A stretch of DNA of 64,000 bases from Natronomonas gomsonensis (GTDB lineage Archaea; Halobacteriota; Halobacteria; Halobacteriales; Haloarculaceae): assembly GCF_024300825.1 (NCBI RefSeq), contig NZ_CP101323.1:2976001-3040000 (forward strand), read 5' to 3'. The notes below the pieces were generated by a model. The model searched no databases. It saw nothing but the letters and a program-made list of their open reading frames with translations, and had not been told where the DNA came from. Positions 7,600 through 56,566 of this stretch are shown here, in pieces (positions within the stretch are counted from its first letter, which is position 1; each line of letters begins with the position of its first letter). A program made the translations under genes and the position numbers.

Positions 7600-8541
7600 T
7601 TATCGGCCTCCCGAATCGGCCGCTGTCCACGCATCAAGCATGGGGTCCGCGGTGGCCGCCACCGTCCCACCGTCAGCCGTGACGCCCGTCCCGACCCCCT
7701 CTGGAGTCGGCGTCGACACCGACGCCGTCGGTTCCACGTCGACCTGCGTGGCGCGAGCCGCGAGCAGCTGCCGCCAGTAGGCGAACGTGGTCTGATAGTA
7801 CGCGCCGTCACCGACGGGATAGACGAGCGTCTCGAAGTCCTCGCCGACGACCCGTGGCCCCATCCGGGTTTGCTCACACTCCAGGTGGTGGTCGGCGACC
7901 GTCGCGATTGATTCGGTGAATTCGTTTCGTTCGTTTCGCGTAACGAGCACCGGGATGTCGTACCCATCGGCGTAGGTTGCCAACCGAGCGAGAGTTCGAG
8001 CCTGAAGGGTTCCCGCGTGGGTTTCGCCGAGGGTATCGTCGGCGCGGTACTGGGCGTCGACGGCCGGCGCGACGATGAGGGCGGGCGTGTGGGGCGACGT
8101 GTCCTCGTCGCGACTCAGTTCCCCTCGACCGGCCGCCCTGGCGTCGGTGGTAGACATCTGGATCGACTTGTTCACCGCTGACGGGAGATCACAGACGGCG
8201 CCGTAGTGCTGGTAGGCGGTGAATCCGCGGGCGACGTGGATTCGGTTGAGCAACCGTTGTCTGGGGGCTATCTGCGTCAGCGTGGCCGTCGTCGCATGGC
8301 CGTTTGCGTCAATCCAGAAAGCGGGCCCGTCGTGCAAGAGGAGATGATCGAGTACCAATGACTGAAGGATCGGAACACCCCGATCACCGTTGACATCGAG
8401 GAGTGTGATACCGTCCTCAAGGGAGGGTAGCAGCATTCCGTCCGTCGCGGGATCGGCTTGATTAGCCAGATTCTGGTTGCGGTCAGCGCTCCGTGTTGGC
8501 TGGTCTACCGCCAATCGATTCGACGTTGAGTGTTCTCCCAT
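7600..8541 (-). CDS. RecA/RadA-fold protein lacking a recognisable Walker A
   Basis: 313 residues. The central 200 residues follow the order of RadA/RadB cores: a strand ending FWIDANG, a helix-strand unit RIHVARGFTAYQHYG, a Walker-B-like strand ALIVAPAVD, then LATYADGYDIPVLVTRNE matching the 'L..LAd..n.aVvvTNq' part of RecA-fold ATPases. No GxxxxGK[ST] is present where Walker A should be (LDVNGDRGVPILQSL), so ATP hydrolysis is doubtful. The C-terminus is Thr/Ala-rich and disordered. It is first gene of an operon with a small protein and a 3'-5' exonuclease. Assignment rests on pattern, not on a search. Confidence 0.6.
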   Translation of the reverse strand: MGEHSTSNRLAVDQPTRSADRNQNLANQADPATDGMLLPSLEDGITLLDVNGDRGVPILQSLVLDHLLLHDGPAFWIDANGHATTATLTQIAPRQRLLNRIHVARGFTAYQHYGAVCDLPSAVNKSIQMSTTDARAAGRGELSRDEDTSPHTPALIVAPAVDAQYRADDTLGETHAGTLQARTLARLATYADGYDIPVLVTRNERNEFTESIATVADHHLECEQTRMGPRVVGEDFETLVYPVGDGAYYQTTFAYWRQLLAARATQVDVEPTASVSTPTPEGVGTGVTADGGTVAATADPMLDAWTAADSGGR

Positions 8542-8697
8542 ACCCGATTAGTTGTCTACGTACCCGATAAGCCGCGGCGTGGCGCTTCCGCGTTTCAAGA
8601 AACTCGATGTGATCTCCTCCAATCCCGGTACAGTCCCGAGTAGTCTCCGTTTGGATCCTGTTTCCGAGAATAGTTCCTGAATCCAGCGTTCTCCGTG

Positions 8698-8739
8698 TTA
8701 ACCAACATCCGGCCGTATTGGCGGCGGCGTGTTGGTTAA
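8698..8739. repeat. Paired inverted repeat TTAACCAACA / TGTTGGTTAA
   Basis: Perfect 10-bp arms at 8698-8707 and 8730-8739, with starts 32 bp apart (three helical turns). The pair lies between the divergent RecA-like cassette and the gene at 8814, a position fitting an operator. The same pair recurs at 53789, 54004 and 58507 with almost identical spacing. Confidence 0.8.
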
Positions 8740-8813
8740 ACCTCCACAGCTGTAGTCTCGAGCCTAACTGCTCGGAATGTTAATGCTCAACGCCACGTTG
8801 GAAGAGGTGCTCT

Positions 8814-9404
8814 ATGAGCTACCCACGAACCCACGTCGACCACCGAAACCCCGATCACCACGAGTCAATGCACCCAACTCGAAATATCGTGAACGCCCAC
8901 GTTGTTGCCGGGGAATTTCTCACTTCGCGGTACCACGAGGCGCTTCAAACTGTTCTCCATCCTCTCGGCGAGTCTCTGGACACCAAAGACCAACATGCGC
9001 TCAACGACCTTGGCATCGTCCATGCTACTGGTTCCTTGAACGAGCTTTCCCCTATCGTTCGCACATACGTCAAACTCGACGAGTATTGGACACGTACCCA
9101 TCGTACTGCACTCAACGAACTATTCGCTGATCGACGTGCTCACGTCCTGAGTTGCTGTACGCGGTTCCTTTCTGAGTTCCCTCGACACACTCTTGAAGCC
9201 GAATCTGGCCGTTCCGGAACTGCGCTGGATACTACCCTTGCTCCGCTTCTCGAGTGCGGATTTCTCTCTCACACCGACGACGAGAAAACGACCTATACTG
9301 TCGATGAACATCACGCGCTGTATCGACCGACTGAACGGCTCTTAGACGCACTTCTTGACCAAGCAGCTGTTCTCTGTGAGCTTCTGCCACCGACCGAGCT
9401 CTAA
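8814..9404 (+). CDS. Hypothetical haloarchaeal protein
   Basis: 196 residues from ATG 8814. I do not recognise the family. The protein is His- and Leu-rich, predicted mostly helical, with no membrane segment. Residues 130-190 (ECGFLSHTDDEKTTYTVDEHHALYRPTERLLDALL) look like the wing and last helix of a winged-helix domain, so a DNA-binding role is possible. It faces away from the RecA-like cassette with the TTAACCAACA pair between them, and stands alone. Codon use resembles neighbouring genes. Confidence 0.55.
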   Translation: MSYPRTHVDHRNPDHHESMHPTRNIVNAHVVAGEFLTSRYHEALQTVLHPLGESLDTKDQHALNDLGIVHATGSLNELSPIVRTYVKLDEYWTRTHRTALNELFADRRAHVLSCCTRFLSEFPRHTLEAESGRSGTALDTTLAPLLECGFLSHTDDEKTTYTVDEHHALYRPTERLLDALLDQAAVLCELLPPTEL

Positions 9405-9598
9405 TCACACGATTCAGAACCTTTTCGGCTCTGTGGAAATCCTCTTGGTCACATACCATCTGCGGTGAAATAGCCGGGAAGTAGGCTTGCTCACCGACGA
9501 CTAACGCCAACAGGGTTCTTCTTTTCCAGAGTCCTTAATTCTACAAGGCTGTGAAGCCGTGAGAAGCATTACTTGCCCAGACTGTCAAGAACGCCAGT

Positions 9599-10678
9599 AT
9601 GAGCGACGTGGAGGACACGAACTGGTTTGAGGAGGCCGTCGAGAACGCATTAAGCATCGACCCCGAAGACATCGCCGCCGACACAGACGAGATAGCAGAC
9701 TTGGTATTCGAGTATAGTGACGAACTCCTCGCCGAATACGCGGTAAAATACCCATCCGTGATGGACGATGAGGCCGCCACCCGGGAAGGATTCGAAACGC
9801 GTCTACACCAACGATGGGGACAAGCCTTCGACAACCTCGAGTTCTTCATCTTGCTGAACCACGAGGCAGGTTCCACGTTCAAACAACACTTAATCGAGGA
9901 TGACGAATTATCTGACACAGACCCACTCTTCTCCGCGCTATTCCGGCTTCACGCACGGGCTTGTCAGGTGTCACGCGAAGTGCTGGCGTTGATACGAGCT
10001 GGATACGCTGACGGCGCATTTTCACGGTGGCGCGCACTCTACGAGATCGCAATCTCTGCCCAATTCATCTCAAAGCACGGCAAGGATACGGCAGAGCGAT
10101 TCCTCCACCACAAAATCGTCGACGACTACTTTGAAGCCGAACTTCTTCAGGAACACCACGAGGAACTCGGCGTTAAATCGTTTTCAGATGACGAAATGGA
10201 AGATATCGAGGAACGATTGGAGCAGATGGTGGACCAGTATGGGGGTGCGTTCAAGCAATCCTATGGATGGGCGCATGTGGAGTTGGATGAGAACCCCTCC
10301 AGACGCACGGTCGCCGAAGATGTCGGATTGGACAGGTACGAACCCTACTTCGCCTTCGCAAGTGATACTATCCACGGCGGTGCGAAAGGCACCCTGTACC
10401 GGATGGGGTTAACCCCCAATACTCAGACGGAAGTGATGGCGACTGGCCCGACGAATACCGGGTTCACAGACCCCGCACAATTCACCGTGTTGATGCTCGC
10501 CGAGGTCACCGAGGCTCTGCTGCTAAATTGGGAACAAATCACGTGGTCACTTGTTTCTACGTCTGTGTTCGAAATGACCCACGAAGTCATTGCGACGTTC
10601 GACGACATCCGCAAGCAGTTAGAGGCGGAAGTAGCGATGGCCGAAGGGAAAGGGTACACTATCGGCGGTCGAGACTGA
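9599..10678 (+). CDS. DUF5677 domain protein
   Basis: 359 residues. The central part HARACQVSREVLALIRAG followed by GAFSRWRALYEIAISAQFI matches the helical DUF5677 signature (repeated helices with a conserved 'a..rwRtLyEl' motif). Conserved His (FASDTIHGG) and acidic residues lie in the C-terminal half. Function is unproven; the family sits in mobile and defence regions of bacteria and archaea. The gene is a single transcription unit in accessory DNA with no obvious partner, the nearest being a broken SRAP gene 230 bp downstream. The start is ATG 9599, preceded by an AT-poor leader. Confidence 0.7.
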   Translation: MSDVEDTNWFEEAVENALSIDPEDIAADTDEIADLVFEYSDELLAEYAVKYPSVMDDEAATREGFETRLHQRWGQAFDNLEFFILLNHEAGSTFKQHLIEDDELSDTDPLFSALFRLHARACQVSREVLALIRAGYADGAFSRWRALYEIAISAQFISKHGKDTAERFLHHKIVDDYFEAELLQEHHEELGVKSFSDDEMEDIEERLEQMVDQYGGAFKQSYGWAHVELDENPSRRTVAEDVGLDRYEPYFAFASDTIHGGAKGTLYRMGLTPNTQTEVMATGPTNTGFTDPAQFTVLMLAEVTEALLLNWEQITWSLVSTSVFEMTHEVIATFDDIRKQLEAEVAMAEGKGYTIGGRD

Positions 10679-47325: not shown

Positions 47326-48156
47326 TTAGAGCATTCGGCCCTCAAGGAAGGGATCAGATTCCTCCACATCAGCGAGGTCCTCCTCGAAGGATTCAACCAC
47401 GTCGGCGAGTACGCCACGAATTTCCGCGAGCCGAGTCTCACCTTGGAAGTTGTAAGTAGGACCGTTGACTGCTAGTGCGCCGACGGCCTCGCCGTCAGGT
47501 TCATACACCGGCATCGCAACTGCAGCAAGACCGTCAACGTACTCCCCCTCAGAGTATGCCCACCCTCGCTCTCGAATTGTCTCCACTTCTGCGAACAATT
47601 CTTCTCTGCTCGTGATTGTTTGCTCGGTCCGTTTGGGGAGACCCCATCGGTTAATTACTGACTCAATCTCGGCATCCGACAGCGTGCTGAGAACCGCTTT
47701 GCCGGCTGCGATACAGTGGAAATGATAGTAGGTGCCGGTCCGCCAGTGCTTGTTAGACTGATCGACACTCTTCTCCTGAAAAGGATTATTCAGGTCGTAG
47801 GAAAGGTGAACCGTCATGACCCGTCCGTCGTTTTTGACAACGAAATCGACTTCCTCGTCAGTTTTTTCAGCCAGTTCGTCCACCTTTTCAGCGGCTATCC
47901 GGTAAGCAGGTCGCCGGGCTCGTGCGAACTCCCCTCGATTCACGAATTTCAAACCAAGATGAAACTGATCGTCTTCTCTGACGAGGTACCCACGGGAAGT
48001 CAACGTCATCAGGTGCTTGTATGCCGTGCTTTTCGAAATATCGAGTGCTTCAGCCACTTCCCCGAGTGTAGCACCGGCCGACTTCTGAATCTCTTGGATG
48101 ACATCCAAGGACCGTTCTGTAGTCTTGATAGTCTCAATTGTTTCTTTGTGTTCCAT
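47326..48156 (-). CDS. IclR-family transcriptional regulator
   Basis: 276 residues. Winged helix-turn-helix at residues 12-70 (EIQKSAGATLGEVAEALDIS then KSTAYKHLMTLTSRGYLVRE), then the IclR effector domain with HFHCIAAGKAVLSTLSDAEI, GWAYSEGEYVDGLAAVAMPV and GALAVNGPTYNF. Family members repress or activate catabolic operons in response to a small acid. It lies at the end of the catabolic cluster, and palindromes matching TTTCGnTAnnCGAAA sit directly ahead of its start, indicating autoregulation. Confidence 0.92.
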   Translation of the reverse strand: MEHKETIETIKTTERSLDVIQEIQKSAGATLGEVAEALDISKSTAYKHLMTLTSRGYLVREDDQFHLGLKFVNRGEFARARRPAYRIAAEKVDELAEKTDEEVDFVVKNDGRVMTVHLSYDLNNPFQEKSVDQSNKHWRTGTYYHFHCIAAGKAVLSTLSDAEIESVINRWGLPKRTEQTITSREELFAEVETIRERGWAYSEGEYVDGLAAVAMPVYEPDGEAVGALAVNGPTYNFQGETRLAEIRGVLADVVESFEEDLADVEESDPFLEGRML

Positions 48157-48185
48157 ACTTCACTTTAGACAGACTCAATGAAAAT

Positions 48186-48690
48186 CGTTTCGATACTCGA
48201 AAAGTATCAGGCAAAAAATAAATGAGTCAACTGAGACTATACTCACGACCGCAACGGCAGATCTATTTCGATACTCGAAATATACGTGTGTGAATTGGTC
48301 TCATAATTGCTGAAGGGCAGGTCAGGCGTAGATTGTGGCACTCCAGTTGGTTCAAATTTTGCTCTGAAGGCCCGCTTAGGCCACTAAAAGCATTATTTCG
48401 AACTATCGAAAAGGTCAGAGTAGCTCATCAGAGATCGATAAGCCGCCATGGTAACCAATACATATTTTCAATAATCGATAGGAAAAAATCGACCAACGTA
48501 AGCTCTTTTCCGGATCATTTATTACTAATATAATATAATAAGGGGAAATCCATCGATCATCAATGGGCTGCAAGCCATTTCGAATAGTGAAATAATTGGC
48601 CATATCACTCTAAATAGAGCTACAAGTGTGTGCATTTATGACAATGGTCACGCCAGCCACCATGATAATCGGTATTTTCGTATACCGAAA
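48186..48690. promoter_or_regulatory. Four palindromic operator candidates ahead of the IclR gene
   Basis: TTTCGATACTCGAAA occurs near 48187-48201 and 48268-48282; the variants TTTCGAACTATCGAAA near 48394 and TTTCGTATACCGAAA near 48673 follow. All share TTTCG/CGAAA arms. The first two lie within 130 bp of the IclR start, the usual place for autoregulatory sites. The rest of the 48157-49141 gap is AT-rich and holds no credible gene. Confidence 0.7.
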
Positions 48691-48945
48691 CCTACGGGTA
48701 TCTGAATCATGCTACGGATATACTGTAGAGGTTAGTAATCTGATTCGAGTAATCGCTCGTATACATGTACGGAGCTCCGAAATCGCCCGGCAATTCAAGC
48801 ACCCAACAACACCACAAAGGGGATCCGAGAAACAAGAGCGGTTCCGTGGGTAGCCTCAATACGATAGCTTCGAATTTCACAGCTAAGACGGTTGTAAGTA
48901 CTCAGTATAAAATCTCTATCACCACTAATGCTGCTAGTTTTGTTG

Positions 48946-49122
48946 TGTGACTACAAAGCGCTAGTAGATTCCTTATGATGGCGAGAGTCGGATAACATCA
49001 TTAGTGTTGTTATTGTTATTGGGACTACTAAGTCTCGGTGTATGTCGATCAACGAAGACACATCTATCACAGTACTAACGTTGTTATTGTATTGGATGAC
49101 TGCAAAGCGTTAATATATCCTC
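48946..49122. repeat. Imperfect duplicated segments ahead of the SMC-like gene
   Basis: GACTACAAAGCGCTAGTAGA at 48951 recurs as GACTGCAAAGCGTTAATATA at 49098, and TTAGTGTTGTTATTGTTATT near 49001 recurs as TAACGTTGTTATTGTATT near 49077. They precede ATG 49142 and may hold promoter or operator copies. Confidence 0.5.
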
Positions 49123-49141
49123 CTCACTAAATATTCCGTAC

Positions 49142-51085
49142 ATGAGTTCAAAACAAATAGAATCGAAGCAGGCACTTACCGTTCGGAACGTTGGTGGGAT
49201 CGATGAGGCGGAGCTCGCGTTCGAACCAGGTGTTACCATCCTCGCAGGACGCAATGCTACGAACCGAACCTCGCTGCTCCAATCGATAATGGCCGCTCTT
49301 GGCAGCGACAACGTCTCCATCAAGTCAGATGCCGACGAAGCACATGTCGAACTTACCCACGACGGAGAGACCTACACCCGGACACTCCAGCGCCGCAACG
49401 GCACGATCCACACCAGCGGTGACCCCTATCTCGACGACCCAACCGTCGCCGACCTGTTCGCGTTCCTCCTCGAATCCAACGAGGCCCGACGCGCCGTCGT
49501 CACCGATGCGGACCTCCGGGACATCATCATGCGACCGGTCGATACCGACGAAATTCAAGCCCAAATCGACCGACTCCTCGACGAACGACGGCAACTCTCC
49601 AACGAACTCGACGAACTCGACTCACTCAAAGACCGCCTCCCCTCCCTCGAGGAAAAGCGCACTCAACTGGAGAATCAAATCGAGGCAAAGCAAGCCGAAC
49701 TCGAGGAACTCGAAGCTGACATCGAAGATCGGGACGCCGATGTCGAACAGAGCCGCGACGATAAAGCCGAACTCGAAAACACTCTCGAAGACCTCCGCTC
49801 GAAACGCTCAGACCTCGAAACCGTCCGATACGAACTCGAAACCGAAGAAGATAGCCTCGAATCGCTTCAGACGGAGAAACAGGAAGTCGAAGACGACTAC
49901 GAGAACCTCCCCGAGACGCCCGCCGGCGACCTCGACGAAATCGAATCCAAAATCGACCAGCTCCGAAGTGAAAAACAGGCCCTAGAATCCGAAGTCAACG
50001 AACTCCAGAGCGTCATCGGGTTCAACCAGGACATGCTCGAAGATGCGGGCAACGGCGTCTTCGACGCCCTCCAGACCAACGCTGAAAACGACGACGTGAC
50101 TGACGAACTACTGCCCGATGAAACCGTCACCTGTTGGACCTGCGGCAGCGACGTCGAGGCAGACCAAATCGAAACCACCGTCGAAAAACTCCAAGACCTC
50201 AGCAAAGACACCGTCAGCGACATCAACGACATCGACGCGGAACTCAGTGACCTGAAAGAACAGCGCCGCGAACGCCAAGACCAACAGCGCCAACGCGAAC
50301 GCCTCGAACGCCGACAGCGAGAACTCGAATCCGAAATTGAAGACACCGAAGCCCGGATCAAACAGCTCTCCGAGCGCCGGGACGACCTCCGCGAGGAAAT
50401 CAAGACCGTCGAAGCAGAGGTCGAGGAGTTGGAAGACGAATCCAACGAAGAACTGCTCGAATTGCACAAGGAGGCCAACCAGCTGGAGTACGACCTCGGC
50501 TCCCTCGAGAGTGACCTCGAACGCGTCGAAGACAACATCGAGAACATCGAAGTACGACTCGACGAGGAAGCCGACCTCAAGAACCGTCGCGAAGATGTCA
50601 ACGACGAAATCGAGGAGCTACGGACGAAAATCGAGCGCATCGAACAGCAAGCCATCGAGGGGTTCAACGACCACATGGAAACGGTGTTGGAGACGCTCGC
50701 CTACGAGAATATTGCTCGGATTTGGCTGGAGCGAACGGAACAGGAAGTACGTGAGGGTCGTCGAAAGGTGACCAAAAGCGTCTTCGATTTGCACATCATC
50801 CGCCAAACGGAGTCGGGGACGACCTACGAGGATTCGATTACGAATCTCTCGGAGAGCGAACGGGAAGTGACAGGGCTGATTTTCGCATTGGCTGGCTATC
50901 TCGCACACAAGGTGTATGAGACCGTCCCGTTCATGCTAATCGACTCCTTGGAGGCAATTGACTCCGATCGAATCAGCCGCCTCGTCGACTACTTCGCCGG
51001 CTACAGCGACTTTCTTGTGGTTGCACTCCTGACCGAAGACGCTCAAGCGCTCTCTGACTCCCACAACCGGATTACCGAAATCTGA
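49142..51085 (+). CDS. Archaea-specific SMC-related coiled-coil protein with zinc hook
   Basis: 647 residues. The N-terminal half of an ABC/SMC head (LTVRNVGGIDEAELAFEPGV) carries a degenerate P-loop GRNATNRTSLLQS: the Gly and Lys of canonical GxxGxGK[ST] are missing. A long Glu/Arg-rich coiled coil spans about 140-560, interrupted by the Rad50-like zinc hook TCWTCGSDVE near 340. The C-terminal head has signature-like NLSESEREVTGLIFAL and Walker B PFMLIDSLEAIDSDR. This matches haloarchaeal SMC-related proteins with rudimentary ATPase heads. A chromosome- or element-organising role is likely but unproven. No partner nuclease is adjacent. Confidence 0.83.
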   Translation: MSSKQIESKQALTVRNVGGIDEAELAFEPGVTILAGRNATNRTSLLQSIMAALGSDNVSIKSDADEAHVELTHDGETYTRTLQRRNGTIHTSGDPYLDDPTVADLFAFLLESNEARRAVVTDADLRDIIMRPVDTDEIQAQIDRLLDERRQLSNELDELDSLKDRLPSLEEKRTQLENQIEAKQAELEELEADIEDRDADVEQSRDDKAELENTLEDLRSKRSDLETVRYELETEEDSLESLQTEKQEVEDDYENLPETPAGDLDEIESKIDQLRSEKQALESEVNELQSVIGFNQDMLEDAGNGVFDALQTNAENDDVTDELLPDETVTCWTCGSDVEADQIETTVEKLQDLSKDTVSDINDIDAELSDLKEQRRERQDQQRQRERLERRQRELESEIEDTEARIKQLSERRDDLREEIKTVEAEVEELEDESNEELLELHKEANQLEYDLGSLESDLERVEDNIENIEVRLDEEADLKNRREDVNDEIEELRTKIERIEQQAIEGFNDHMETVLETLAYENIARIWLERTEQEVREGRRKVTKSVFDLHIIRQTESGTTYEDSITNLSESEREVTGLIFALAGYLAHKVYETVPFMLIDSLEAIDSDRISRLVDYFAGYSDFLVVALLTEDAQALSDSHNRITEI

Positions 51086-51147
51086 GACTCCCCTTTCGGT
51101 CCATTTTTTCTGTCGGAGATTTCTTTGAGCCGGCTCTTCCCGAGTTT

Positions 51148-51442
51148 CTAGATGAGGACAGACAACTCGAGGATTTTCTCTTCGACCAACTCCTCGATGA
51201 GGGCTCGATTTCTCCGGTGAGAAGGTGTGAGCGAGACTCGACATCGTCTCGACGACCTCGCTGGTTTGTTCAGCGACACTTGGTGTGGGCGCGGTTGTGA
51301 GCGGCCGGTTGACCAACTCACTGTCCTTGTAGTAACAGAACCTGAGCAGGGTGGCGTCATTCTCTTCGGGTGTGACAATCTGGACGACGCCGTATCCGTC
51401 TTTCCACATGTCAATCGTTTGTTCAAGCATGTTCTGTAGCAT
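51148..51442 (-). pseudogene. Frameshifted small hypothetical gene
   Basis: From ATG 51442 (alternative 51430) the frame reads MLQNMLEQTIDMWKDGYGVV and continues to MSSLAHTFSPE. Beyond an AAA run near 51213 the coding pattern moves to another frame as RALIEELVEEKILELSVLI with stop at 51148. Removing one A joins both parts into a helical protein of about 97 residues. I do not know the family. Either a true frameshift or a homopolymer sequencing error. Confidence 0.55.
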
Positions 51443-51691
51443 ATACACACAACGTTTCGCGCATATGTACGTAAGCGGTTTCATTTATCTAATTCATATA
51501 ATCGCCACATTGGATACCTACTATCAAATGGTGACAGCATCAGCTGAATAGAGCAAGTGATCCGTGAAGCGCGAGAGACGAGTGGCACACGATTTGAGTG
51601 GGCACCAAGAGCCCGAAGAGGTGGGCTATTCTGGACGTTCTCCGATGGACGCCGACTCCTCCGGTTGTTTCGGAGACGAATCCACTTGCGA

Positions 51692-52102
51692 TTACTCGTA
51701 GTAGTCAATTCGCTCGACGACGTTGGCGAAGCCGACGTTCTCGCGGACGTTGGTGATTTCGATGCGAACACGTTCACCAACGTCGGTATCGGGGACGATG
51801 ATGACGTAGCCACGTTCGACGCGGGCGATGCCATCACCGCCGTCACCGAGGGTTTCGATTTCGACCTGGCGGGTCTCCCCTTCCTCGACTGGTGGATTGG
51901 ACTCGGCCTGAGCTCGCTGGCTCGAGGCCGACGAGGATGAATTCGAGGCGGGTGTTGCGGGAAGCAGCGCCACGCGATAGGTATCACCGGTGTTGAGCTG
52001 GCCGATCTCGAGTTCTCGCTGCGGGATTTCGATGACGTATGAGTCTCCGCGCTCTTCTACGTGGCCGGTGAACAGACAGTTGAGTTGTTCAGGGAGTTCC
52101 AT
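51692..52102 (-). CDS. TRAM-domain protein
   Basis: 136 residues. Residues 1-50 form a small beta domain (CLFTGHVEERGDSYVIEIPQ); a Ser/Ala-rich linker follows; residues 72-134 are a TRAM domain (GETRQVEIETLGDGGDGIAR, GYVIIVPDTDVGERVRIEI, NVRENVGFANVVE), the OB-like fold that binds structured RNA. Stand-alone TRAM proteins in archaea act as RNA chaperones or translation/stress regulators. No operon partner. Confidence 0.88.
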   Translation of the reverse strand: MELPEQLNCLFTGHVEERGDSYVIEIPQRELEIGQLNTGDTYRVALLPATPASNSSSSASSQRAQAESNPPVEEGETRQVEIETLGDGGDGIARVERGYVIIVPDTDVGERVRIEITNVRENVGFANVVERIDYYE

Positions 52103-52477
52103 TCGGGGCTACCTGATCTACCCGCGTGTGGAAGCGACTTGATTGTGTTGTCATCCGACCATATGTAGTCGGGATCAAATACTATTCCTTTGAACGAATC
52201 GTAGGCCATAGTGTGATAGCTGGCGCCCGGGAAGCCGTATCTCATGCCGAACGTGGCGAACGGTATCGGCGAGGAGATTATGAACAGTGGCCAGTGTTCT
52301 ATCGGCAGACCTCTCAATTGTGATCGGGTTATATCGAGTTAACCAGCTACTTTATATATTCTTTAATGAATCTTCAGGCGACTACTGGGGCCCAGTTGTC
52401 GACAGACGACGTTCAACGAGTCGTTCGGTGATTCAAGTGCCTGAGCTTCGCCAGAACGGATGATGGAGGAGCGTTAG
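52103..52477. other. Intergenic region ahead of the iteron array
   Basis: Contains no convincing gene. It includes the promoter side of the TRAM gene and AT-rich stretches (TTATATCGAG, TTTATATATT near 52350). A lone GTTAACCAGC near 52338 resembles half of the TTAACCAACA element. Confidence 0.35.
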
Positions 52478-52568
52478 TATGTTCATCTAATATATTCACC
52501 CCACATATTCACCATGTATGTTCATCGCCTATGTTCAACGTGTATATCCACCAAATATGTTCACCACA
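52478..52568 (+). repeat. Seven tandem 13-bp iterons, consensus TATGTTCACCNNN
   Basis: Units start at 52478, 52491, 52504, 52517, 52530, 52543 and 52556 with exact 13-bp phase. Each reads like TATGTTCATCTAA, TATGTTCATCGCC or TATGTTCACCACA; an eighth degenerate unit follows. Only the first ten bases are conserved. Such strict phasing suits a protein-binding array (iteron, centromere or operator). It lies 85 bp before the hydrolase start and 1.2 kb from the replication origin. Confidence 0.85.
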
Positions 52569-52652
52569 TATTTCCTACGCGACACAGACCGTATTCCGAT
52601 GGATCGTTCCAGAATCCCCCAAGCACATGTGACTAGTCGCCGTCTTAGCGTC

Positions 52653-53651
52653 ATGGACCATCCGGCCCCTAGGGAAAGGACCGAAAAACGAGACGGTGGG
52701 ACTAGGAGTACTGCGAGGAAAGTCAGTCGGTGGGGCCGCAGGTCAGTTGCGGCCAGCATGCTGGGTCTAGCGTTGTATGCGGGCTACGAATCGGACCGGG
52801 ATCCGGAGAAGCTCCGCGAGCGGTACACGTATCCGGAATCGGAGTTCGTGACTGTCGACGGGCTAACTGTTCACTACCGCGACACCGGGCCCGAGGACCC
52901 AAACGCCCCGACGCTGGTGTGTTGCCATGGGGTCTTCGCGTCGCTCCATACCTGGGAAGGGTGGACCGACGAACTATCCAGCGCGATGCGGGTCGTAAGC
53001 CTCGACCTTCCGGGGTTCGGGCTCACCGGTCCCCACCCGGAAGGACGCAACGGAATCCAAGAGACCGTCAACTTTCTCGCCGCCTTCCTCGATGCCATTG
53101 GAATCGAGCGAGCGTCGCTGGCGGGGAGTTCCCGGGGTGGTGAGATCGCTTGGCGGTTCGCTGTTGACTACCCCAACCGCGTCGACCGTCTGGTGTTAAT
53201 CGGCGCCGCAGGCTATCCACGTAAGGAGACGCGGTGGCTGCGGCGAATACGGGACCTTGGCCCGCTCTCGTGGCCGCTCCAGTACTTCACTCCCCGACCG
53301 TTGACGGAGGTGGTCGTTCGGAAGGCATACGGCAACCCTGCGCGAATAGTACCCGAGACTGTGACTCGCTATCATGAACTACTTCTGCGAGCGGGGAACC
53401 GCGATGCAATCGCTAATCTGGACGTCCAGACCGGCGATCGGAGCGCCGACGTCCCGCGGGTCGACGCACCGACGCTTGTACTGTGGGGTAGCGAGGACGT
53501 GGTAATTCCGCCAGCACACGGGGAGCGGTTCGCTCGTGAAATTTCGGATGCCGAACTCGTTGTCTACCAGGGGTTAGGCCACATCCCGATGGAAGAAGAC
53601 CCGAAGCGGACGGTTCCCGATGTCCGGACCTTCCTGTTGGACGAGGAGTGA
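52653..53651 (+). CDS. Alpha/beta hydrolase
   Basis: 332 residues from ATG 52653 (MDHPAPRERTEKRDGG); in-frame starts further upstream fall within the iterons. A basic N-terminus and one hydrophobic stretch (SVAASMLGLALYAGY) near 28-42 suggest membrane anchoring. Catalytic triad: Ser in ASLAGSSRGGEIAWR, Asp in LVLWGSEDVVIP, His in YQGLGHIPMEED; the oxyanion motif is CCHGVFAS. Hydrolyses an ester, epoxide or similar bond; the substrate is unknown. Not in an operon. Confidence 0.85.
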   Translation: MDHPAPRERTEKRDGGTRSTARKVSRWGRRSVAASMLGLALYAGYESDRDPEKLRERYTYPESEFVTVDGLTVHYRDTGPEDPNAPTLVCCHGVFASLHTWEGWTDELSSAMRVVSLDLPGFGLTGPHPEGRNGIQETVNFLAAFLDAIGIERASLAGSSRGGEIAWRFAVDYPNRVDRLVLIGAAGYPRKETRWLRRIRDLGPLSWPLQYFTPRPLTEVVVRKAYGNPARIVPETVTRYHELLLRAGNRDAIANLDVQTGDRSADVPRVDAPTLVLWGSEDVVIPPAHGERFAREISDAELVVYQGLGHIPMEEDPKRTVPDVRTFLLDEE

Positions 53652-53788: not shown

Positions 53789-54044
53789 TTAACCAACATA
53801 ACCGACACAGTGAGCGACTCTGTTGGTTAATGGATGTGGCGTTTTTTCGAAATGTCGGGCAGCATGGGTAGTGACCAAATCTTATCGTATTAGTGGGGAC
53901 AGTTCCACGAGGAAGAGCAAGCACGGGTATGGCAATTGCCGTACCCCAGAAGGGACACCGGGTTTCCGGTGAAATATCCGAGGGCCAACTCTGTAACTCG
54001 TGTTTAACCAACAGTATTGACGGTTGTCCTGCATCGTTGGTTAA
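53789..54044. repeat. Two paired TTAACCAACA inverted repeats beside the origin
   Basis: Pair 1: TTAACCAACA 53789-53798 with TGTTGGTTAA 53821-53830 (offset 32). Pair 2: TTAACCAACA 54004-54013 with CGTTGGTTAA 54035-54044 (offset 31). They interleave with the leftmost origin boxes, so the binding factor could influence replication or the local promoters. Confidence 0.75.
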
Positions 54045-54676
54045 CGGTGCTACGTCTATTGGGCGGTCGAAGAGACACACCACGTTTCCGGTGGGTTGTG
54101 TCCGGAGAACCCTTAGGTCGAAATATGATAGCTCGATATGTCCCAAGAAATGACTCCGGCATACACACACCACGTTTCCGGTGAAATACCTATTGGAAGG
54201 CACTGTGTCTACGGTATTCCGCTGTGGTAGTGGTTGTATAACTATTCTTTCCTAGATGTATGTCTGACATAGTTTTATTACTATTCCCTGATTACCAGCC
54301 ACTAACCTCATCGTCAGCAAAGAATGAAGACGACAGCTGTCGTCTTCAAGCTCCAGTTGATCTAACCGACTCTTGCTACTTGCGGGCGTGAACATTCGCA
54401 TTCGTCTGCTTTCTCTGGTTCTACAGCTTCTGTCCTAACACGAGTCCTGGTAACCTCTTCAGCTGGGATCTGCCAAGCCAATGGATGGACTCCGTCCATT
54501 GAACAGGCCGTAACATGCTCTGTTTCGTACTGAGTTGCGATTCTAACCGTCTTTCCGCCCCCCCGATACCCCTCTTTCATCTGGAGTAGATACACTCATA
54601 ATTCGGGTTTCACCGGAAACCCGGTGTGTGTGTCTCGGGGGAAGCTTCAAGTCGTTTCACCGGAAACTCGGTGTCA
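53953..54676. other. Replication origin: origin-recognition-box repeats upstream of orc1
   Basis: Five ORB-like boxes with core CACCGGAAAC(N)CGGTGT: on the minus strand near 53953-53975, 54073-54096 and 54161-54185, on the plus strand at 54607-54632 and 54654-54676. The two groups face each other. Between them, 54190-54310 is AT-rich and suits a duplex-unwinding element. Adjacent orc1/cdc6 and inverted ORBs are the standard haloarchaeal origin layout. Confidence 0.85.
54362..54577 (-). CDS. Small hypothetical protein inside the origin region
   Basis: 71 residues from ATG 54577. Sequence MKEGYRGGGKTVRIATQYET then acidic/Cys-containing KADECECSRPQ. A short beta-rich body (TVRIATQYE; VTACSMDGVHPLAWQIPAEE) is plausible, but no family is recognised. 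It lies between the two ORB groups and divergent from orc1. Coding bias is weak, so it may not be a gene. Confidence 0.35.
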   Translation of the reverse strand, partial: KEGYRGGGKTVRIATQYETEHVTACSMDGVHPLAWQIPAEEVTRTRVRTEAVEPEKADECECSRPQVARVG

Positions 54677-54682
54677 ACGAGT

Positions 54683-55888
54683 ATGTCTCAGTCTGACGAA
54701 CTATTCACCCGGGAAGATCCGATCTTCGTGAACAAGGAACTCTTAGAAATTAACCATCTCCCGGATGAGGGACGCATCGTTGGGCGAGACGACGCGATTA
54801 GTAAACTCGCAAATGCAGTGAATCCGGCTATCTTTGGCCAGAGTCCGAGCAACGTTCTTATTTACGGTAAGACGGGGACTGGGAAATCTTTGTGTGCAAA
54901 ATACGTCTCAACACGACTTGTCGAAACTGCTGCCGAGGAGAACGTTAACGCGAAGACTGCCTACGTTGACTGTGCACAGGATACAACTGAAACACAGGCT
55001 GTTCAAACCATCGCTAGTAAACTCAACGACCCTGACACGACTGGCGTTAACATCCCAGATAAGGGAATCAGTACCGCGACGTACTACAAGCGGCTCTGGA
55101 AAATCCTGGATGAGCAGCACGACGTTGCGTTAATCATCCTTGATGAAATCGACAAACTCGACGACGACAGCATCCTGATGCAGCTCTCACGAGCGGGAGA
55201 AGCGGGAAAAATCGAGAGTTGTAAGATCGGCGTGATTGGGATTAGCAACAAGATTCGGTACAAAGATCGAATGGACGAGCGTGTTAAAAGTAGTCTCTGT
55301 GAGCGTGAGTTTGTCTTCCCACCATACGATGCCGGACAACTGAATGATATCATGGAAGCACGACGGGATGCCTTCCGCGACGGTGTCCTAGACGAGAGCG
55401 TGATTTCTCGCACTGCAGCACTGGCCGCTCGCGAACACGGGGATGCACGCAAGGCAATTGACATCCTCCGATACGCCGGCGAGATCGCACAATCCGAGGA
55501 GGCAGAGGTCGTCCGTGAGGAGTTCGTCGATAGAGCTCGTGACCAGGCAGAAACCGATCGGTTCCGTGAACTCATTCGAGGTTCGACACCCCACTCACGA
55601 TACGTACTACAAGCGTTGACAATCCTCTCGCTTAATTCACCGAAAAAAGAGGGATTCAGAACCACTGCTATCTACGATTTATATGAGCAAATTTGCCGAC
55701 AGGAGGGCTCCGAGGGACTTTCGTTGCGTCGGGTTCGTGACCTCCTGAAAGAACATGCGTTCTTGGATGTTACCGAGCAATCTCGATGCTCCGGTGGTAG
55801 TGCTGAAGGTAGCTACACCGAACACCAACTGCTTGAAGACCCGGAAGTCATCCAGAGTGTCCTCTCGGGGAGCCTTGATTCTGAGTGA
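54683..55888 (+). CDS. orc1: Orc1/Cdc6 replication initiator
   Basis: 401 residues from ATG 54683 (MSQSDELFTREDPIFVNKEL), just after an ORB; an earlier ATG at 54626 would overlap the boxes. AAA+ motifs: Walker A YGKTGTGKSLCAKY, Walker B ALIILDEIDKLDDD, sensor 1 GVIGISNKIRY and sensor 2 REHGDARKAIDILRYAG. The C-terminal winged helix (FRTTAIYDLYEQICRQEG) binds ORBs. It should recognise the boxes on both sides and load MCM helicase. Codons are AT-richer than in core genes, as usual for plasmid or secondary-origin Orc proteins. Confidence 0.94.
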   Translation: MSQSDELFTREDPIFVNKELLEINHLPDEGRIVGRDDAISKLANAVNPAIFGQSPSNVLIYGKTGTGKSLCAKYVSTRLVETAAEENVNAKTAYVDCAQDTTETQAVQTIASKLNDPDTTGVNIPDKGISTATYYKRLWKILDEQHDVALIILDEIDKLDDDSILMQLSRAGEAGKIESCKIGVIGISNKIRYKDRMDERVKSSLCEREFVFPPYDAGQLNDIMEARRDAFRDGVLDESVISRTAALAAREHGDARKAIDILRYAGEIAQSEEAEVVREEFVDRARDQAETDRFRELIRGSTPHSRYVLQALTILSLNSPKKEGFRTTAIYDLYEQICRQEGSEGLSLRRVRDLLKEHAFLDVTEQSRCSGGSAEGSYTEHQLLEDPEVIQSVLSGSLDSE

Positions 55889-55991: not shown

Positions 55992-56258
55992 TTTTCACCG
56001 GAAACCCGGTGTGTGTGTGGATATGGCCCCGGTTTACGCCAGAATTGTAATAGATTCACACGCAAACCCGTAAACAGCATTGCTAGCCCTATTCAAGATA
56101 ACTTACACCGGAAACGTGGTGTCTCCCCTTCGTGTTTGCTGCGATGTATTTTACCGAACAACTGGTGTCCGCGGTCGAATTATGGCAATTTTCGCGTAGA
56201 GATTTTGGAGCGATAACCTAAGAATTGACTATGGATCGTTCACCGGAAATCTGGTGTG
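55992..56258 (+). other. Origin-recognition-box repeats downstream of orc1
   Basis: Three more boxes, all in plus orientation: TTTTCACCGGAAACCCGGTG near 55992-56011 extending to TGTGTGTG, ACACCGGAAACGTGGTGT at 56105-56122, and TTCACCGGAAATCTGGTGTG at 56239-56258. With the upstream group, orc1 is bracketed by eight boxes. Confidence 0.8.
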
Positions 56259-56498: not shown

Positions 56499-56566
56499 AC
56501 ACACCCCTCTATCGATGTGTTCACCTCCGGTAGTTGCCCTAAACACACCCCTCTATCGATGTGTTC
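56499..56566 (+). repeat. Two 24-bp direct repeats ahead of the CARF gene
   Basis: An identical 24-bp unit occurs at 56499-56522 and 56543-56566: it starts ACACACCCCTCTATC and ends GATGTGTTC. The ends ACACA/TGTGT are inverted. Unit offset is 44 bp, spacer 20 bp. Lying 65-130 bp before the CARF start, they look like operator copies. With only two units and no cas genes this is not a CRISPR array. Confidence 0.65.

Follow-up and report, generated by a model that had tools for sequence, protein, structure and literature searches.

The altered ATP-binding loop of the SMC-related protein encoded at positions 49142-51085 (+) of the window, a 64,000-nucleotide stretch of the Natronomonas gomsonensis genome, is a fixed feature that, as judged from its aligned relatives, characterizes the main haloarchaeal branch within the archaea-specific SMC-related proteins (ASRP), and is not a sign of decay. 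The heads of the Sph2-4 proteins that make up this branch most likely do not hydrolyze ATP, because the P-loop lysine and the catalytic glutamate have both been exchanged and the exchange has been kept. On balance, the window protein is probably a non-hydrolyzing SMC-type rod that acts with RdfA in the control of cell shape, and not a tether of its replicon. No report of the uniform lack of both key ATPase residues in this branch turned up in the open-access literature, to which the search was directed.

The reading frame is intact and encodes 647 residues, for which the best family is NF045487 (ASRP; 699.7 bits, cut-off 300). The alignment runs from residue 16 to 632 of the protein and over the whole profile (1-593 of 593), and the AAA_23 domain is detected as well (PF13476; 52.5 bits, cut-off 27). 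The predicted structure (mean pLDDT 85.8) comprises a head and an antiparallel coiled coil, whose helices (residues 136-312 and 340-519, with short gaps) form two arms of approximately 180 residues each, interrupted by short breaks and joined at a mid-protein CWTC zinc hook (residues 331-334). The predicted head has the SMC/Rad50 fold, with a VIA-align Z of 21.4 and an rmsd of 3.8 over 320 residues against the Pyrococcus SMC head 5xns, and a Z of 21.0 against the Rad50 structures 5da9 and 3qku. Together with the family score, this bears out the SMC/Rad50 relationship proposed in the first-pass annotation. A sequence search of solved structures returned 21 matches up to an E value of 0.01 (best 1.5e-4), which included SMC, Rad50 and unrelated coiled coils. 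Profiles for Rad50 and for condensin-type SMC proteins are not matched at their cut-offs, the protein scoring 59.4 bits against 700 (PRK03918), 41.8 against 1000 (Rad50_Halo) and 60.6 against 567.35 (TIGR02168). The ASRP family was described in 2022 and takes in haloarchaeal Sph and Sulfolobus coalescin (PMC9389158); the window gene is a further member of it. The positions of the canonical Walker residues are present, with arginine for lysine and serine for glutamate; since the same exchanges are common to 171 other aligned rows, they do not speak against membership.

The Walker A motif reads GRNATNRTS (residues 36-44; 49247-49273, +), with Arg42 at the position of the P-loop lysine. The signature motif, canonically LSGG, is LSESERE (residues 569-575; 50846-50866, +), and the Walker B motif, FMLIDSLEAID (residues 597-607; 50930-50962, +), keeps Asp601 and has Ser602 in place of the catalytic glutamate. 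The earlier statement that a C-terminal Walker B remains is thus right for the aspartate and wrong for the glutamate, the signature being altered as well. The CxxC hook, by comparison, is as intact as had been claimed (CWTCG, residues 331-335; 50132-50146, +), and a CxxC is found in 184 of 185 aligned rows. That alignment, in which identical cores were collapsed and near-identical rows were kept separate, holds 183 cores plus two outgroup rows; 172 rows have arginine and 13 have lysine in the P-loop, a ratio that is not a population estimate, as the loci were drawn mainly from high-scoring ASRP matches and the arginine type is over-represented. The exact string GRNATNRTS occurs in 140 of the 185 rows, and the P-loop arginine, the serine after the Walker B aspartate and LSES are found all together in every one of the 172 arginine-type rows.

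For 1,500 pairs sampled from these 172 rows, the median identity is 50% and the lowest value 31%. The three altered elements persist at such distances, so that the site has been conserved in its altered form and has not decayed. The Walker A, signature and Walker B columns have a mean identity of 0.964, compared with 0.764 for random head columns, and none of 20,000 draws was as high; for the hook columns conservation is 0.997. The P-loop had been called degenerate, which is correct in that it is non-canonical; as a description of decay the term does not fit a motif that is nearly invariant in its branch. In the same genome, Rad50 keeps GVNGSGKS, LSGGE and LILDEP, and SMC keeps GPNGSGKS, a simple pattern search giving no match to its other motifs.

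To follow the history of the exchange, a 64-row tree was computed from the columns of the head, leaving out the P-loop and the two Walker B columns. The lysine/arginine label requires two changes on this tree (two to three across bootstrap trees), most simply read as arginine arising once, in the haloarchaeal branch, and L250 apparently going back to lysine. The fork at the base of the arginine group, between lysine-type haloarchaeal and arginine rows, is poorly supported, with an unsettled bootstrap and long outgroup branches. The ASRP of L250 (7956-9896, -) has GSNASNKSS and Asp-Ala and sits on a long branch nested among arginine rows; it may have regained lysine or may be wrongly placed on the tree. 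In the outgroup ASRPs of the same phylum, GKS or GKT is found in five of five rows and Asp-Glu in three (L255, L066 and L069). Lysine-type haloarchaeal rows have glycine or arginine at the position of the catalytic glutamate. Over all 13 lysine rows, the Walker B aspartate is followed by glutamate in three, glycine in five, asparagine in two, alanine in one and arginine in one, the remaining row being a fragment (lysine row L136 covers part of the L219 gene, the C-terminus being absent). On the simplest reading of these residues, the glutamate would have been lost first and the lysine second.

The strongest linkage of the family is to rdfA. Of 54 named ASRP loci, 48 have a gene for RdfA (Pfam PF21811) at a distance of at most 400 bp, two of the six exceptions (L096 and L097) having almost no upstream DNA. 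In a larger set, rdfA was detected within 400 bp in 127 of 150 relatives; this set was obtained from 236 ASRP rows, reduced to 183 by merging identical cores and then to 150 by dropping 33 with less than 5 kb on a side. All but six of the 127 matches score above 100 bits; among the six, that of L218 is a 52-residue remnant, and those of L172 and L189 (26 and 42 bits) may be remnants. Both fractions agree with the published count of rdfA beside ASRP in 42 of 50 cases (PMC10869688). For archaea as a whole, as far as PMC9389158 describes them, the flanking genes of ASRP yielded no consensus.

The same association is seen between genomes. ASRP is widespread in haloarchaea, a family member over the cut-off being present in 253 of 292 genomes. 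Among 284 haloarchaeal genomes scored for co-occurrence, with ASRP taken as present at a best E value of at most 1e-60, RdfA was found in all 248 that have ASRP and in four of the 36 that lack it (Fisher p ~3e-38, the related genomes not being independent). The table was tallied by hand, and 12 match-less genomes that were not listed were assigned to the remaining handles up to G283. The four genomes with RdfA and no ASRP are G072, G111, G165 and G260, the last with RdfA only at 5.9e-4; as only four candidates were scored per genome, some of those counted as lacking ASRP may hide a divergent one. Outside Halobacteria, G311 is the sole genome in which RdfA exceeds the cut-off, and the link is nearly confined to that class. 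In this genome, which belongs to the same phylum, locus L255 carries an ASRP gene (7881-9848) with APNASGKTS and Asp-Glu, adjoined by an RdfA-like gene (10029-10613; 35.2 bits, Pfam cut-off 27). An RdfA-like gene beside an ASRP that still bears the ATPase motifs suggests that RdfA and ASRP may have been paired before the ATPase residues were lost. In a search with the fold of RdfA no match was convincing (Foldseek E 0.37 and VIA-align Z 4.5 at best), a result that does not bear on its mechanism.

The window copy is unusual for its family in that no adjacent rdfA was detected, which counts against the preferred reading. In the stretch that holds rdfA in most relatives (48157-49141), neither the gene nor a remnant was detected: a six-frame hmmsearch of 47601-49260 at E values up to 10 found none, and none lay upstream of the window copy among the best 40 tblastn matches, although both methods recovered the rdfA remnant upstream of an 89%-identical paralogue. 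That paralogue (C1:2894506) is one of three further ASRP copies in the genome, the others being C1:587892 (76%) and the distant C1:2966527 (31%, lysine type), each of which has an rdfA neighbor. The gene had been described as solitary, a term that fails for the genome and stands only insofar as rdfA does not adjoin it. Three RdfA genes are found elsewhere in the genome, so that an RdfA encoded at another locus could serve the window protein in trans. The window gene is followed, after some 28 kb, by an orphan rdfA (C1:3055040-3055615, -), with no ASRP in its 20-kb stretch (L220). The idea that this orphan is the displaced partner of the window gene is unsupported, as it best matches the RdfA of L153 and of L224 (53-56%), and these two loci are not the closest relatives of the window locus.

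In Haloferax volcanii, deletion of sph3 or of rdfA leaves only disk-shaped, non-motile cells, both genes being required for rods (PMC10869688). A 2026 paper describes Sph3 as plate-promoting, the opposite of that deletion result (PMC13286277). Deletion of sph2 in Haloferax has an effect on shape opposite to that of sph3, sph2 and sph4 could not be removed together, and the sph1 and sph4 deletants look approximately like the wild type (PMC11276520). All four deletions lowered survival in a gene-conversion assay, those of sph2 and sph4 to about 5% (PMC11276520). The general defect in this assay and the failure to remove sph2 and sph4 together, next to the wild-type look of the sph1 and sph4 deletants, indicate that shape is not the sole role of Sph proteins, which counts against the preferred reading. 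In Haloferax massiliensis (L117), an rdfA gene, an ASRP gene and a HalOD1 gene reproduce the published rdfA-sph3-ddfA order, and this ASRP has GRNATNRTS and DSVEAID. By this synteny, an altered P-loop would be compatible with function in a shape-determining protein.

The non-hydrolyzing rod that we favor would be built as follows. In the predicted fold, both ends of the protein together form an ABC-type head, which with the coiled-coil arm amounts to a half-length version of SMC or Rad50. Two ASRP molecules would be joined through the CWTC hook and most likely through their heads as well, giving a rod or a ring. Such a dimer would probably not cycle ATP, its head serving as a static or ligand-gated dimerization module, and the pocket would have been kept to form the dimer interface or to hold a ligand that is bound and not hydrolyzed. 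RdfA would be the usual partner, perhaps by direct contact, and might be supplied to the window copy from elsewhere in the genome. The output would be a structural rod or scaffold in the control of cell shape and motility, with the window copy possibly acting as a paralogue that tunes the 76%-identical, rdfA-paired one. More tentatively, the whole of Sph2-4 may be SMC-superfamily pseudo-ATPases, fixed as such since the branch arose, which retain a zinc hook and a head pocket under strong selection and act together with RdfA as a non-motor shape scaffold. If so, Sph2-4 would represent an SMC-type machine turned into a cytoskeletal element through loss of ATP hydrolysis.

The first-pass annotation had placed the gene about 3 kb from an origin, with TRAM and iteron elements between, and had suggested a role in folding or tethering this replicon. 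The setting is real. Downstream of the ASRP gene lie a TRAM-domain gene (51692-52102, -; PF01938, 56.8 bits), a neighbor outside the system, and a 13-bp iteron array found by repeat search (52477-52580, +). The array overlaps the first codons of an open reading frame at 52518-53651 (hydrolase-like by eye), which may therefore start further downstream. An orc1/cdc6 gene follows approximately 3.5 kb from the ASRP gene (54626-55888, +; Cdc6_lid PF22703 and Cdc6_C PF09079). Nine imperfect copies of a TTTCACCGGAAAC..GGTGT element, also located by repeat search, lie around it: five precede cdc6 or fall at its start (53955-54674), and four, 70-100% alike, are downstream of it (55994-56258). We take all nine to be ORB-like, origin-box-type repeats. 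Beyond them are two identical 24-nt repeats at 56499-56566, 44 bp apart from start to start.

A coalescin-like organizer, in which DNA-bound zinc-hook dimers tether DNA and the closeness to an origin reflects that tethering, would suit this setting. The SMC fold of the predicted head, the common family with coalescin/ClsN (PMC9389158) and the occurrence of relatives on 137 plasmid records agree with it, and a review states that deletion of sph4 in Haloferax led to fewer short-range contacts, although boundaries and loops were intact (PMC9764264). With the gene-conversion data, these contacts make a chromosome-related role possible for the Sph family. The linkage itself, however, is not clearly above chance. 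A cdc6 gene lies within 5 kb in 9 of the 150 relatives, each with at least 5 kb per side and the window counted, compared with an expectation of about 3.3% calculated from the frequency of Cdc6 matches in 59 genomes, 8.4 per genome (binomial p = 0.06; 0.12 for the 8 of 149 without the window). A weak excess in the family is possible, and the location of many ASRP genes on large plasmids may further raise the chance of such proximity. Origin linkage as a family trait is thus unsupported on the 150 loci. A hint from the 54 named loci that copies without rdfA sit near cdc6 (L092, L096 and L097) did not hold in the larger sample, in which cdc6 was near 3 of 23 relatives that lack an adjacent rdfA, the window copy among them, and near 6 of the 127 that have one (Fisher p = 0.14). 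The other three ASRP copies of the genome have no Cdc6 match within 5 kb. The closeness of the window copy to cdc6 is probably a coincidence; the suggested replicon role finds no support in these counts, the strong linkage being to rdfA, and we regard the organizer as unlikely.

Somewhat less likely still is a Rad50-like factor for recombination or gene conversion in the polyploid haloarchaea. The Rad50-like head and zinc hook and the reduced survival of all sph deletants in the gene-conversion assay (PMC11276520) would fit it, but that assay measures survival of a harsh treatment. The genome already has a canonical Rad50, and the conserved neighbor of ASRP is RdfA, with no Mre11-type product among the few neighbors scanned.

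A re-wired but active ATPase, in which Arg42 would replace the lysine and Glu604 would serve as catalytic base, appears improbable. The higher conservation of the pocket columns relative to the remaining head is as expected for a ligand that is still bound, and Glu604, three residues past Asp601, and Arg610 are invariant in the 172 arginine rows. Arg42 could yet bind nucleotide and Glu604 could act as a base, which counts against the preferred reading. The glutamate, however, is already gone in lysine-type haloarchaeal rows (Asp-Gly, Asp-Arg and Asp-Ala), which looks like a path of loss.

That the window gene is a decaying pseudogene copy can hardly be entertained: the odd motif, the missing rdfA neighbor and a decayed small gene alongside might suggest it, but the frame is intact, dN/dS is 0.09-0.11 and the motif is identical to that of intact relatives. 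In particular, dN/dS is 0.091 against a 92%-identical relative (L077, Natronomonas sp. CBA1123, contig NZ_WPCC01000003.1) and 0.107 against the 89% paralogue, and falls to 0.032 and 0.047, respectively, for the C-terminal head. The window protein is under strong constraint. The small gene is convergent (51085-51484, -) and frameshifted, as indicated by alignment and translations; beside two near copies it is a 120-codon open frame (L077 11966-12325 and L218 11464-11823; approximately 110-120 residues). Its homologues lie beside near ASRP copies in L077, L218, L078, L079 and L238, and near ASRP also in L052 and L202; no convincing Pfam match was found for it. A viral or phage origin of the ASRP gene was rejected, with no relative in phages or in viral contigs (four pattern matches, none confirmed).

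SMC-superfamily proteins are treated as ATP-driven, and Sph2-4 allow a direct test of an SMC-type rod without an ATPase cycle. To name these proteins SMC ATPases may be wrong as to the ATPase.

Among known systems, Rad50 resembles the window protein in head fold and zinc hook; the Rad50 of the same genome differs as an 896-residue open frame with canonical motifs, and the window protein scores far below the Rad50 cut-offs. Arcadin-4 is likewise SMC-like and tied to the cytoskeleton (PMC9389158; PMC10869688) and has been proposed to derive from Rad50 (PMC9389158), but its profile is weak on the window protein (39.6 bits, cut-off 860). Coalescin/ClsN of Sulfolobus is published as a zinc-hook protein of the same family, with Sph and ClsN forming separate clades (PMC9389158). 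The haloarchaeal lysine type, represented in the same genome by C1:2966527, shares family and hook with the window protein and has an rdfA neighbor; it differs in its retained P-loop lysine (GTNWQGKSS) and its Asp-Gly Walker B, and is 31% identical. From the two-group tree reported in PMC11276520, we infer that this is the Sph1 type. Haloarchaeal Sph2-4, such as Sph3 (HVO_2175) of Haloferax volcanii, likened here through the syntenic Haloferax massiliensis protein, have the same family, length, zinc hook and head fold as the window protein, from which most of these relatives differ in having an adjoining rdfA.
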